The notes below the pieces were generated by a model that saw only the letters and a list, made by a program, of their open reading frames with translations, was not told the origin of the DNA and did not search any database. Shown piece by piece: positions 34,355-38,323 of a DNA stretch of 64,000 bases. The position numbers and the translations under genes were made by a program. Origin of the DNA: Frankia alni ACN14a (GTDB taxonomy: Bacteria > Actinomycetota > Actinomycetes > Frankiales > Frankiaceae); contig NC_008278.1 of NCBI RefSeq assembly GCF_000058485.1, forward strand, positions 1,730,962 to 1,794,961, written 5' to 3'. Each line of letters opens with the position of its first letter. The first letter of the stretch is position 1.

Positions 34355-34834
34355 ATGGACCGCGGCGGTCGCCTGGTCGGCATCTACACCGCGGCCGGCC
34401 GCGGCGCGGCGATGCGGGCCCGCTCCCGGGCACGGGTGATCGAGGGCCGCGGCCTGGCCGGGGACCGGTACGCGGCGGGCGCCGGGACCTACTCCGCGTG
34501 GAGCGGCTCCGGGCGGGCGGTGACGCTGATCGCCCGGGAGGCGGTCCGTGCCCTGGTCGACGAGGGCCGGGTCACGCTCGCCGAACACGAGACGCGCCGC
34601 AACCTGGTCACCGAGGGGATCGACCTGCCGGATCTGATCGGTCGGGCGTTCCGCGTGGGGGACGTGGTGCTGTACGGCGCGCGGCCGTGCCCGCCGTGCG
34701 GCTACCTGGAACGTCTGCTCGACCGCCCGGGGCTGTGGCGGGCCCTCGCCGAGCGAGGCGGCCTGCGGGCGGACGTCGTGCGCGGCGGCACGGTCGAGCT
34801 CGGCGCCGCCATCGTCCCGCTGACCACTTCCTGA
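34355..34834 (+). CDS. MOSC-domain protein
   Basis: A 159-residue protein. MOSC features: GLAGDRYAAGAGTYS near residue 35, AVTLIAREAVRAL, RRNLVTEGIDLPDLIGRAF (the conserved R-N-x-x-T/V segment), and GARPCPPCGYLERLL with the conserved cysteine. MOSC domains carry sulfur to the molybdenum cofactor or form part of Mo-dependent reductases (YiiM-like). ATG 34355 is used because the upstream extension is the GTGGCA microsatellite. Confidence 0.88.
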   Translation: MDRGGRLVGIYTAAGRGAAMRARSRARVIEGRGLAGDRYAAGAGTYSAWSGSGRAVTLIAREAVRALVDEGRVTLAEHETRRNLVTEGIDLPDLIGRAFRVGDVVLYGARPCPPCGYLERLLDRPGLWRALAERGGLRADVVRGGTVELGAAIVPLTTS

Positions 34835-35264
34835 CCCGGCGGACCGGCCTCGGCGCTGTATCACAGTAAATCACCACCGGCGACGGTTTGCTTCTCGTCT
34901 CATTCTTTACAATCGGCAAGCACGCCCATCGAATTGAAGGTCTGTCGGGGCGCTTCGCATTCCCCGGTCGGTTCACCGGCGGGTGTTGCGTTCCGGCAGG
35001 TCACGGGTGTTCCCTGTGGGTCGGGTCGCGAACGCGCGCCGGAAACGCGTGACACCGGGCGTGCCGACTGGTTAGTCTAAGCGCGACGATAATTCCACTG
35101 CCGGGGGCGGCGATGGTGCGCGCGGGTGCGTCGGCAGGTCCCGTTCGGAGTGCATCCACGGCAATGACGGGCGCGGCCGGCAGCCGGGGCGCCCTTTGCT
35201 GTCCAGTCGTGCGCGGGGCAAGGCCGGCAGGAATCGACCTCCGCGGCGATCCGCCGACCGGGCG
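34835..35264. other. Lower-GC intergenic region upstream of the RiPP-like operon
   Basis: The first 100 bp are noticeably richer in A/T than the neighbourhood (for example CATTCTTTACAATCGG around 34901). A promoter-like GTGACA (35049-35054), 18-bp spacer, TAGTCT (35073-35078) reads rightward, but it is about 500 bp before the first recognised plus-strand gene. I see no RNA structure I can name. The open frame 35113-35397 is Arg/Ser-rich and not convincing. Confidence 0.45.
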
Positions 35265-35504
35265 TCAGGCTGCGGGCGGGCGCTGGGTGTCGCCGGAACG
35301 ACGGGAGGCCAGGTCGCCGTTCGCCGACCGGTGGCACCGGCAGCCGTGCCAGACCTCGGCGAGGACCGTCAGCAGCTGCAACGCGAACAGGAGGTAGAAC
35401 GATGAACCGGAGCTCGGGCCGCCCGTCGGCACGGCGACCAGAAAGACGAGTATCGGTCGTGAACGGGCGCGTCGGGCGGCCTCGTCGGGAAGAGTTAGTC
35501 GCAT
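35265..35504 (-). CDS. Possible small membrane protein (hypothetical)
   Basis: A 79-residue frame starting MRLTLPDEAARRARSRPILV at ATG 35504. It has a basic N-terminus, then one or two hydrophobic stretches (PILVFLVAVPTG and SFYLLFALQLLTVLAEVWHG), then a CRCH and polar tail. Third-position GC is fairly high. No homologous family comes to mind, and the overlapping plus-strand frame is no better. It is divergent from the RiPP-like operon (start 35597), sharing a 92-bp gap. Confidence 0.35.
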   Translation of the reverse strand: MRLTLPDEAARRARSRPILVFLVAVPTGGPSSGSSFYLLFALQLLTVLAEVWHGCRCHRSANGDLASRRSGDTQRPPAA

Positions 35505-35596
35505 ACCAGTATGGTGCGCGGCCGTGCGGGAAAGTGGCGACCATCTGACGGCGCATCTTCCTGCGTGGTGGTTTCGCAGTTCTTTCGGGGGAGGTT

Positions 35597-36088
35597 GTGA
35601 ACGAGGAGTTGCTCGCCGTGCTGCGGGGAAGGTGCCTGGCGGCGTCGCTGAATGACGCACCCCACTTCGTCGGCTGGCTGAAGACCAACTGGCCGCCGCT
35701 GGCCGGCTGCCAGCCGGCTGATGCGCCTCGACTGGTGCGTCAGCTTCTGGTTGACGCGGCGACGGCGAGTCTCGATCCGCCGAATCTGCTGCCCGTCGTC
35801 AAGATCATGATTGGTGCCTCGGTTGCGGACCCGGCCCGGACCACCCGGCAGCGCATTCTGGGGCTCATGGCAGAGGCGATGCCCAGGCATCGGTCCGGTG
35901 CGCCGGGTCTCGCCTACAGCCCCCGCCGGATGGAACAGTTGGAGCGAGAAGTGATCTGTCCTGCGGTTGAGACGGCACTGCGCCTCTTTCTCGGCAAGAC
36001 GTCACTGCCGGGCACACAGCCCTGGCTGGACTACGACCTGACGATCACACTGCGCGGGCATCACGCGAACCGCGAACTGATCGCGTGA
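35597..36088 (+). CDS. Unrecognised protein, first gene of the RiPP-like operon
   Basis: A 163-residue, mostly helical soluble protein from GTG 35597, preceded closely by GGGGGAGG. I recognise no domain. Visible features: a helical N-terminus (ELLAVLRGRCLAASLNDAPH), a WLKTNWPPL turn, a Leu-rich middle (LVRQLLVDAATASLDPPNLL), and a basic segment MPRHRSGAPGLAYSPRRM. The base composition is less GC-rich than surrounding genes. The next gene starts 1 bp after its stop, and a graspetide-type ligase follows, so it probably serves peptide maturation, recognition or immunity; this is inference only. Confidence 0.7.
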   Translation: MNEELLAVLRGRCLAASLNDAPHFVGWLKTNWPPLAGCQPADAPRLVRQLLVDAATASLDPPNLLPVVKIMIGASVADPARTTRQRILGLMAEAMPRHRSGAPGLAYSPRRMEQLEREVICPAVETALRLFLGKTSLPGTQPWLDYDLTITLRGHHANRELIA

Positions 36089-36089
36089 G

Positions 36090-36461
36090 GTGGAAGCCGA
36101 GAAAGTGCGCGAGCGCATGGAGACGACGGGGGACGTGGCCGACGACCTGCGGATCTACGCCAGTGCCGAGAATACCGACGCCAGCCCGACCCGCTGGCGC
36201 ATCATCTCCGACCAGGAGATCACCCGGGCGACACGCTACTGCTACTGGAGCGCCGCTCGGCCGCTGTTCCTGCGTAGGGCGCAGTTCGACTACTCCGCCT
36301 TCCCCGACGTCGAGCGGCTGGCGTTCGAACTCAAGCCGCGCCTTGGCCGGCGGATGACGGTCGGGCGGCATGACGACCTCGGCGTGATCGAGTTGGAGGT
36401 CGGCTCCTGGGTCAGTCCGGGCAACGCCGTTGAACTCACCTGGCAGGAACGCGCGGGATGA
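36090..36461 (+). CDS. Unrecognised protein, second gene of the RiPP-like operon
   Basis: A 123-residue protein from GTG 36090; ATG 36117 (METTGDVADDLRIYASAENT) is an alternative start. The sequence alternates short strands and aromatic-rich stretches (ATRYCYWSAARPLFLRRAQF) and ends in a strand-rich part (GRHDDLGVIELEVGSWVSPG), suggesting a small beta-rich fold. No family recognised. Its stop overlaps the ATP-grasp start by 4 bp (ATGA), so it is made together with the ligase and may be a partner or peptide-recognition subunit. Confidence 0.7.
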   Translation: MEAEKVRERMETTGDVADDLRIYASAENTDASPTRWRIISDQEITRATRYCYWSAARPLFLRRAQFDYSAFPDVERLAFELKPRLGRRMTVGRHDDLGVIELEVGSWVSPGNAVELTWQERAG

Positions 36462-37420
36462 CCGCGGAGGTGCTGGTCATCGGCCGGCATGACGACCAGC
36501 ATGTGGCGCGATGTGCCGCGGTGCTGGGCGCGGCCGGCCGGACCTGCGAGGTGCTGTGGCTCGGACTCGCCCGCCAGCGATACCGGATTCACGGAGATCT
36601 CGCCTCGATGGAGCTGGGGCTCGACGGCCGCCGCTACCCGCTCGCCGACTACCGGCACGTGCTCTGCCTGCCCATGGCGGTCAACCGACCGAGCATGGTC
36701 GACACCGACGGCGACGAGTTCGGGGAGCGTGAGTGGAACGCCCTGCTCCGATCGGTGCTCGTCCGATCGGCGGCGCACAGTCCGGCCGCGTGGCTGATTC
36801 ATCCCGATGCCGACCTTCTTCAGGATCGCAAGATCGCTCTCCTGCAGTGCGCCGCGCGCGCCTGTCCAGAACTCGCGATACCGCCGACCGTCATCACCAA
36901 CGAGCTGCTCGACGCCGACGTCGCGTTGCTCGGCGATCGAATCGTGGTGAAACCGATCAATGCCTGGCAGGAGGTCTCGCCGGGCCGGTATTTCAACACC
37001 ACCCTGCTGACCGATGCGGCGTTGGCGAAGATTCGTCAGGTCGGGCCGCTCGACACTCTCACTATTTTCCAGCGTTTTCTTCCGCATTCGATTGAGTACC
37101 GGTGTTACTGCGTCCACAACGCCGTTCTGACGGTTCGACTTCAGGTGGCGCCTGGATCGGCGGACTCCCGGCTTCCCGGAGCGTCCCAGGGGGCCACCGT
37201 CACAACCGACGAACAGGATTTCGCGCCGGCCCTGCGAGAGATCACCCGAAGTCTTCGGGTCCATTACTGCTGCTTCGACATGGTGATGGACGGAAGTGGA
37301 AGGAGCTGGCTGACCGATATCAATCCGACCGGATCGTGGCGGTATCTCGAGAACCAGTTCGATTGTGACCTCACGTCCTGGATCCTGGCGACCTGGCTAG
37401 GCAGGAGTACTGATGGATAG
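36458..37420 (+). CDS. ATP-grasp ligase related to graspetide (microviridin-type) maturases
   Basis: A 320-residue protein with the layout of MvdC/MvdD/TgmB-type ligases: an N-terminal pre-grasp domain (VLVIGRHDDQHVARCAAVLG), EFGEREWNALLRSVL, DRKIALLQCAARACPELAIP with K125, and IPPTVITNE. Then K165 in VVKPIN and IEYRCYCVH. The C-terminal Mg/ATP site is FDMVMDGSGRSWLTDINPTG with D274, D287 and N289, followed by SWRYLENQF. Such enzymes activate Asp/Glu side chains of a precursor peptide and form ester or amide crosslinks with Thr/Ser/Lys. The gene lies second before a 25-residue peptide gene and overlaps both neighbours. A glutathione-synthetase-like role is less likely given the pre-grasp sequence. 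Confidence 0.85.
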   Translation: MTAEVLVIGRHDDQHVARCAAVLGAAGRTCEVLWLGLARQRYRIHGDLASMELGLDGRRYPLADYRHVLCLPMAVNRPSMVDTDGDEFGEREWNALLRSVLVRSAAHSPAAWLIHPDADLLQDRKIALLQCAARACPELAIPPTVITNELLDADVALLGDRIVVKPINAWQEVSPGRYFNTTLLTDAALAKIRQVGPLDTLTIFQRFLPHSIEYRCYCVHNAVLTVRLQVAPGSADSRLPGASQGATVTTDEQDFAPALREITRSLRVHYCCFDMVMDGSGRSWLTDINPTGSWRYLENQFDCDLTSWILATWLGRSTDG

Positions 37421-38105
37421 CCCCTTCGCGATTCGTCGCCATGTCCCGAACTCGCCCGACGCGTTGCACTGCGCGCAGGCGAGTCTGATCAGGACTCTGG
37501 AGACTCTCGGTCATGCCGAGCAGATGACCCTCGACCAGGCAGATGAGATCACCGGATTCCGGGAGGGAGTGGAGACCTGGCCGTACTCGATGCTCGCGTG
37601 GCTCGGGGAGAACGGCTATGAGGTTCGACACGAGGATGCACTCGATGCAGTCGCGCTGATGCGGGACGCGGAGACGGAGCTGCGGCGCTCCGGGCTGGAC
37701 GACGAGACGTTGGAGTACTTCCTCGACATCAGCGACTTCTCGCGCGAGGGCGCTGCGATCGCTCGATGTCTCGCGAGCGGTAATCTCACCTTTGTGCCCG
37801 GAATCCCCGACCCGAGGCGTCTGACGGACCGCATCGATGCACGGTGGCTTCCGCTGCTGAGTCTGGACGCGGCGGTGCTGGCCGAGCGTGAACGCGACGG
37901 TTTCGAGGGGCACATGGTGCTGGTCACCGGCTTTGTCGGGCAGTGTGCCGTGATCCAGGATCCGGGACCGCCGAGCAGGTGGGACTGGGTGGTTCCGCTG
38001 TCGCGTGTTTCGGTGGCCCTGAGATCTCCGGCGGATACCTCGGGTACGATCACCTACATTCGAAGAAAAGCAGGGCGGGGAGGAATTCCACATGTCAGTA
38101 CATGA
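37413..38105 (+). CDS. Stand-alone C39-like cysteine peptidase
   Basis: A 230-residue soluble protein with the papain-like C39 pattern: C20 in ALHCAQASLIRTL at the start of the first helix, H167 in DGFEGHMVLVTGF and D183 in VIQDPGPP, giving a Cys-His-Asp triad. ITGFREGVETWPYSMLAWLG between them is typical of the stand-alone C39-like group, not of ABC-transporter leader peptidases. There is no Gln at the usual oxyanion position before the Cys. It has no signal peptide or membrane helix, so it would act in the cytoplasm, presumably cleaving or hydrolysing the modified peptide. It overlaps the ligase by 8 bp and the peptide gene by 14 bp. Confidence 0.8.
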   Translation: MDSPFAIRRHVPNSPDALHCAQASLIRTLETLGHAEQMTLDQADEITGFREGVETWPYSMLAWLGENGYEVRHEDALDAVALMRDAETELRRSGLDDETLEYFLDISDFSREGAAIARCLASGNLTFVPGIPDPRRLTDRIDARWLPLLSLDAAVLAERERDGFEGHMVLVTGFVGQCAVIQDPGPPSRWDWVVPLSRVSVALRSPADTSGTITYIRRKAGRGGIPHVST

Positions 38106-38169
38106 TCTTGTTGCGCAGGAGACCAGCGCTCAGCAGACGGATTCCGAGGACGGCCAGCCGGTAGGTTGA
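38092..38169 (+). CDS. 25-residue candidate RiPP precursor peptide
   Basis: ATG 38092 is preceded at 7 bp by GGGGAGGA (38077-38084), the best ribosome binding site in the operon. The peptide starts MSVHDLVAQETS and ends in SEDGQPVG. The C-terminal 16 residues contain T11, S12, T16 and S18 as hydroxyl donors and E10, D17, E19 and D20 as carboxyl partners, the combination crosslinked by graspetide ligases. MSVHDLVAQ would be a short leader. It is much shorter than known graspetide precursors. It overlaps the peptidase gene by 14 bp in another frame. Alternatives: a small regulatory peptide, or a chance frame, although the Shine-Dalgarno argues against chance. Confidence 0.65.
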   Translation: MSVHDLVAQETSAQQTDSEDGQPVG

Positions 38170-38191
38170 CGACCTTGTTCCGGTGGTGTCG

Positions 38192-38210
38192 GCACCGTCG
38201 TCGTCGGTGC
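38192..38210 (+). terminator. Weak hairpin after the RiPP-like operon
   Basis: GCACCG-7 nt-CGGTGC, 22 bp beyond the peptide stop. The stem is short, so this is only a candidate. Confidence 0.3.
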
Positions 38211-38323
38211 GGCGGGCGCTGACGACCGGACCGCTTCGTCGGCCGCTCGGACAGTCCGGGAGGCGACAGGTGGGGAACCTGCCGCGGCCCGTTCGCCGCG
38301 GAGAGGGGCCGTAGGCTTAGCCG

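Follow-up and report, generated by a model that had tools for sequence, protein, structure and literature searches.

A stretch of 64,000 nucleotides of Frankia alni ACN14a (NC_008278.1, positions 1,730,962 to 1,794,961), hereafter the window, was analysed around a group of five plus-strand open reading frames (ORFs), P0001 to P0005, one of which encodes a putative ATP-grasp ligase related to the enzymes that mature graspetides (omega-ester peptides). The genome holding the window is a single contig of 7,497,934 bases. The five ORFs are packed with a gap of 1 bp followed by overlaps of 4, 8 and 14 bp. A first-pass annotation, made from the DNA letters, had described this layout and proposed a peptide-modification operon; all of its coordinates, the gap and the overlaps were reproduced, and beyond this confirmed descriptive part its interpretation was supported in part, with the corrections given below. 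The genes are the following, in amino acids (aa):

35597..36088, plus strand: P0001, orphan protein of 163 aa, possibly an accessory or partner protein
36090..36461, plus strand: P0002, orphan protein of 123 aa
36458..37420, plus strand: P0003, putative divergent ATP-grasp ligase of 320 aa from the graspetide-maturase superfamily
37413..38105, plus strand: P0004, C39/papain-fold cysteine peptidase or acyltransferase of 230 aa with the candidate triad C20/H167/D183
38092..38169, plus strand: P0005, candidate substrate, a peptide of 25 aa that contains Ser/Thr as well as Asp/Glu residues

The first four genes presented a coding-like guanine plus cytosine (G+C) pattern, lowest at codon position 2 and highest at position 3, and the matches to the complement of the anti-Shine-Dalgarno sequence upstream of P0001, P0002, P0003 and P0004 were of 4, 0, 4 and 5 bases, respectively. 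No promoter-like or terminator-like site rose above shuffled sequences between positions 34800 and 38400. A defence system was also looked for, and none of the five products gave a PADLOC or PHROGs match at E ≤ 1.

The NCBIfam model TIGR04187 (ATP-grasp ribosomal peptide maturase) matched P0003 at E 1.1e-19 and 70.8 bits over residues 71-304, followed by MvdC (TIGR04185, 2.6e-10), MvdD (TIGR04184, 0.023) and rimK_fam (0.053), with no further family at E ≤ 1. The match to the maturase models was significant and better than that to the RimK-type ones, which is the mark of the graspetide synthetase superfamily, and the matches among solved structures were 5ig8 (E 7e-7), 9bou (1.5e-4) and AMdnB 7m4s (0.025). 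Profiles and solved relatives together bear out the earlier grouping of this ligase with ribosomal-peptide maturases and not with RimK-type enzymes. Of the two features that define the TgmB subfamily proper, the TIGR04187 score and the PF21068 domain, P0003 presented neither. As yardsticks, the annotated TgmB of L082 scored 410.3 bits with TIGR04187 and matched PF21068 at E 9e-15, and the ligases L081, L085 and L079 scored 257, 108 and 31 bits; PF21068 reached L081 at E 0.005 only, and neither L085 nor L079 at E ≤ 0.1, so this model misses divergent ligases. The MvdC/MvdD-type pre-grasp region that had been claimed for P0003 was not confirmed, no Pfam model matching the protein at E ≤ 1, and its N-terminal part escapes recognition by the pre-grasp model PF21068. 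Judged by its sequence, P0003 is a remote and very divergent member of the maturase superfamily, lying under the bar of the named subfamily.

The conserved residues were assessed in an alignment of P0003 with 32 ligases drawn from 43 loci, 11 of which had been dropped as they gave no tblastn row; the ligase of L012 was truncated. K165, Q205 and R215 of P0003 were invariant in all 32, and R238, D236 and K125 were kept in 31, 30 and 29 of them. The DINP motif noticed in the first pass lies at residues 287-290, within DINPTGSW (287-294). Among the 31 ligases covering it, D or E stood at position 287 in every one, N at 289 in 30, P or Q at 290 in 31 and the glycine in 31, and P0003 itself carries the conserved pattern D/E-x-N-P/Q-x-G. 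No placement in a tree is claimed for P0003, because the branch joining it to L085 has a support of 0.74.

Relatives of P0003 were few and distant. In the genome sets searched, which are samples of the class, 30 of 393 genomes (its own included) matched it at E ≤ 1e-7, and the best non-self row reached 30% identity over residues 91-315; at E ≤ 1e-3, 11 of 97 relatives matched, again counting its own genome. Remote records numbered 17 in the plasmid collection and one in the phage collection, where P0003 was the sole query. Close relatives were also sought by pattern scans, which confirmed none in the genome collection and gave none in the viral collection, and the genome that holds the window contained no match to the YheCD-type ATP-grasp model PF14398. 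When 12 loci surrounding other ligases were searched with P0001, P0002 and P0004, none of the three gave a tblastn row at E ≤ 0.1.

Some of the other ligase loci had contents of their own. The source of the best non-self row, L085 (in L109:5502-7060), is followed by a frame with hydrophobic stretches, an arrangement like that of the ligase in L081. In the latter locus (L081:3557-5394, on a Sinorhizobium plasmid), a 69-aa frame that contains the repeat EI.TKT.....DD three times precedes the ligase, and a protein with hydrophobic stretches is encoded downstream; the annotation gives hypothetical proteins only, and the locus has the appearance of a multicore graspetide cluster. On a Rhodococcus plasmid, the operon at L079:3150-7481 combines a very divergent maturase-type ATP-grasp protein, an annotated radical S-adenosylmethionine protein and two hypothetical proteins.

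P0004 is predicted to adopt a C39/papain fold (predicted local distance difference test, pLDDT, 82.5), and the top structural match of the model was an endoisopeptidase; in this structure search the absence of a family excludes nothing. The model and the search uphold the C39-like fold without a transporter domain that had been suggested before, and C20, H167 and D183 were found at those positions. Four of the five aligned family members carry this triad, namely P0004, its closest paralogue P0010, located 1.2 Mb away in the own genome, and the two orthologues of that paralogue; the fifth, a kinase-fused copy, has lost all three residues as a set. No P0003-like gene was present within 15-20 kb around the paralogue or its two orthologues. 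At the second site (L046:4628-14176) the paralogue has a Crp-type regulator on one side and, at a greater distance on the other, a HisB homologue; the PfkB-type kinase fused to the triad-less copy is located there too, and comparable genes surround the orthologues in two same-genus genomes (L047 and L048). Of 393 genomes searched with P0004, 26 gave rows at E ≤ 0.01, and outside G000, G011 and G012 all of them were partial, with E at least 6.7e-5. A profile of the family left one weak partial row (E 2e-4) beyond these three in 325 genomes, and the family is confined to three genomes of one genus among those searched. By sequence, P0004 had no credible match in the PDB, and a pattern scan of the genome collection confirmed no close relative.

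The predicted papain fold is common to acyltransferases as well as peptidases, and the operon might be read as forming or transferring an amide with an amino acid or another small molecule as acceptor or donor, ATP-grasp activation being followed by a papain-fold acyltransferase step. Acyl transfer of this kind has parallels in butirosin BtrJ/BtrH, lincosamide CcbD, closthioamide CtaG and phytochelatin synthase. However, P0003 lies nearest to ribosomal-peptide maturases, and none of the five products was recognised as a carrier protein or an enzyme of small-molecule metabolism; such a function is considered improbable.

The first-pass statement that P0001 and P0002 belong to no known family holds, since no credible relatives were found in the collections searched. 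Pfam and NCBIfam contained no family for either, and the plasmid collection gave no match for P0001, P0002 or P0004. Candidate relatives were rejected as chance: for P0001, rows in two of 393 genomes comprised itself and one weak row (E 6.7e-4) antisense to a called gene, and for P0002, rows in four of 296 genomes comprised itself and three weak ones (E 8e-4 to 0.006), judged by their partial alignments and contexts among the matches listed. A single-sequence structure model of P0001 was left unused because its pLDDT was 41.

The last gene of the group, P0005, has the sequence MSVHDLVAQETSAQQTDSEDGQPVG, in which hydroxyl (Ser/Thr) and acidic (Asp/Glu) residues are present. Its ATG is preceded at 8 nt by GGAGG, and the overlap with P0004 gives coupling. 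In the window, GGAGG stands 4-9 nt upstream of 14 of 930 ATGs, and a match of at least 5 bases to the anti-Shine-Dalgarno complement precedes 15 of the 214 ATG ORFs of 20-60 aa. The codon-position G+C (0.76/0.40/0.60 at positions 1/2/3 over 25 codons) gave a weaker coding signal than in the four larger genes; the ribosome-binding site and the coupling to P0004 support, moderately, a real gene. It occurs as a single copy at its own locus, the search covering the own genome only, and matched no family in Pfam or NCBIfam. Two other small frames lie upstream of the operon:

35402..35548, plus strand: 48-aa ORF that stops 48 bp short of P0001 and has AGGAGGT 6 nt upstream of its start codon; a further candidate for a small peptide
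35265..35504, minus strand: P0024, putative coding ORF of 79 aa that includes a hydrophobic stretch, points away from the operon and overlaps the 48-aa ORF

The 48-aa ORF, which was missing from the first-pass list, had the strongest Shine-Dalgarno sequence among the 214 short ATG ORFs and no family match. P0024 fits the local codon-phase pattern and sits in the same strain-restricted segment as the operon (delimited below); its rows in five of 58 genomes were itself and four weak ones. The Frankia_peptide model PF14407 had no match in the own genome, but its control matched nowhere, so this result says little.

These frames bear on the identity of the substrate. The first pass had taken P0005 as the substrate of the ligase; the hydroxyl and carboxyl residues on which this was based are present, and the role itself could not be shown for a peptide that occurs only at this locus in its own genome and is devoid of a double-Gly site. 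P0005 is plausibly the best single candidate within the operon, and its being the substrate is a tentative proposal, held with clearly less than even confidence. A different account would place the substrate elsewhere, in a peptide or protein of the host that P0004 cleaves, in the 48-aa ORF or in part of P0001 or P0002, with P0005 as a chance frame or a regulatory peptide. In its favour, peptidase-bearing ATP-grasp loci without predictable precursors are described in PMC8939145, and the 48-aa ORF combines the top ribosome-binding site with a C-terminal part that contains Glu, Tyr, Lys and Thr. On the other side, the P0005 frame, which overlaps that of P0004, is preceded by a good ribosome-binding site and encodes Ser/Thr and Asp/Glu residues, whereas the 48-aa ORF is Arg-rich, has weak codon-position bias and is overlapped by the minus-strand candidate P0024. 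This account is regarded as unlikely.

The interpretation favoured here, with somewhat more than even confidence, is that the operon constitutes a divergent graspetide-type peptide-modification cassette, for which we infer a joint action of the five genes. P0003 would use ATP to activate a side-chain carboxylate as an acyl phosphate and would then link the activated group to a peptide hydroxyl or amine; P0004, as a stand-alone C39/papain-fold cysteine enzyme, would cut the modified or donor peptide, and P0001 and P0002 may act as accessory or partner proteins. The peptide would be P0005 or, alternatively, would come from the upstream 48-aa ORF or a host protein cut by P0004. It is also conceivable, and very improbable, that the operon forms a miniature peptide-tagging system with components other than those of pupylation, in which P0003 would activate a carboxylate of P0005 and join it to proteins instead of to P0005 itself, P0004 would remove the tag and P0001 and P0002 would be adaptors; this overlaps the account of a substrate other than P0005, because the target would lie outside the operon.

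Several observations weigh against a graspetide-type cassette. The 70.8 bits of P0003 are far under the curated TIGR04187 cut-off of 350 bits and, Pfam matches being absent as well, the enzyme may act on an altered substrate. The P0004 domain is not tied to graspetides, because the regions of its paralogue lack a P0003-like gene, and no transporter or methyltransferase was recognised in the cassette by Pfam or NCBIfam. P0005 is very short, with no discernible leader motif or double-Gly site, and no homologue of it was found in the own genome, to which that search was confined. Finally, co-conservation cannot support a joint pathway, because the gene set occurs in no other genome searched.

Compared with known systems, the cassette resembles the TgmB/SAV_5884-type graspetide clusters in the conserved ATP-grasp motifs, the small frame nearby and the actinomycete host. 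It differs from them in the low score of P0003 (70.8 bits against 410 for the canonical TgmB), in the lack of a PF21068 match and in the flanking genes, as the TgmB of L082 is flanked by a tgmA-type precursor and a methyltransferase, neither of which was recognised here. Makarova et al. (2022, PMC8939145) described ATP-grasp branches 7 and 8, in which most loci carry peptidases of several unrelated families and no precursor is predictable, and proposed that a host protein or peptide is cut by the peptidase; branch 4 was associated with unconserved small proteins. P0003 is likened to branches 7 and 8 by description only, as a ligase that adjoins a peptidase with no recognisable precursor, and the P0004 family is not among the peptidases described in the sections consulted. 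According to PMC13097080, some graspetides require partner proteins and other groups have neighbouring proteases. The extra proteins encoded with P0003 recall the former, but those groups are associated with peptidyl-prolyl isomerases and 2-oxoglutarate oxygenases, whereas P0001 and P0002 match no family. With the precedents in these two sources, a non-transporter peptidase beside the ligase, which the first pass had taken as unusual, is not without parallel. P0004 shares its fold and Cys-His-Asp order with the C39 domains of peptidase-containing ATP-binding cassette transporters (PCAT1 and ComA) and differs from them in being a stand-alone protein of 230 aa, with no transporter domain and no double-Gly substrate seen in the operon. 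The role of C39 and C1A proteases in leader removal is reviewed in PMC10885120, and NosP is reported to be the first protease specific to the biosynthesis of microviridins (PMC13039773). A search by title and the start of the abstract, made without the locus name or supplements, found no paper treating this locus; the locus may nevertheless stand in a table.

The history of the operon was approached through its flanks, and two features were delimited:

34835..38247, no strand: strain-restricted segment of ~3.4 kb holding the operon, which five genomes of the genus lack between the corresponding flanking genes
37039..37131, plus strand: part of P0003 preserved as a relic (L058:1323-1415) in the otherwise empty site of G012

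Between the same flanks, G002, G003, G009, G011 and G012 have 9-116 bases in place of the ~3.4 kb found here. When the loci of 11 relatives around the downstream gene P0008 were compared, one (G012) matched the segment at E ≤ 1e-3; the six loci other than those of the five genomes named above do not show both flanks close together and speak weakly on absence. The G012 relic, correct in place and orientation, aligns with the P0003 gene over 94 columns that include two one-base gaps and are 77% identical, and its score of 74 was reached by none of 100 shuffles (maximum 31). Candidate relics in the spacers of G011, G002 and G009 were not above shuffles (their scores being reached by 7, 5 and 17 of 100), and the G003 spacer of 9 bases was too short for the test. 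The relic indicates that the cassette, or at least the ligase, formerly stood at this site in the G012 lineage and was largely deleted, and it rules out a recent insertion into this strain only. In a tree of the flanks, G011 was placed beside this genome (support 78) and G012 outside (support 58); this topology would require separate losses, but its support is weak. The segment has a G+C of 61-71% against 69-79% in the flanks (500-base windows), and the lower value is consistent with an older import. A mobile element was considered and rejected, as no target-site duplication or terminal repeat was recognised and the window contains no transfer RNA; no transposase or any other Pfam match was obtained among P0001-P0005 or P0024. 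The full five-gene set was absent from every other genome searched, G012 keeping the ligase relic only.

The absence from five relatives and the decayed relic in one could also suggest that the cassette is decaying and non-functional in this strain. In contrast, all five frames are open here, the overlaps are intact, and neither the motifs of the ligase nor the triad of the peptidase lack a residue, which makes decay a very doubtful explanation.

ATP-grasp ligases with a neighbouring peptidase, and loci that lack a recognisable precursor, have been published before (PMC8939145, PMC13097080). If the favoured interpretation is true, the known graspetide systems would be extended by a ligase of high divergence, by a C39-like family and possibly by a substrate of very small size, all in a cassette of ~2.6 kb, short enough for expression as a whole. 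From the G012 relic, this cassette, or at least its ligase, formerly had a wider distribution at this site of the chromosome and was then lost.
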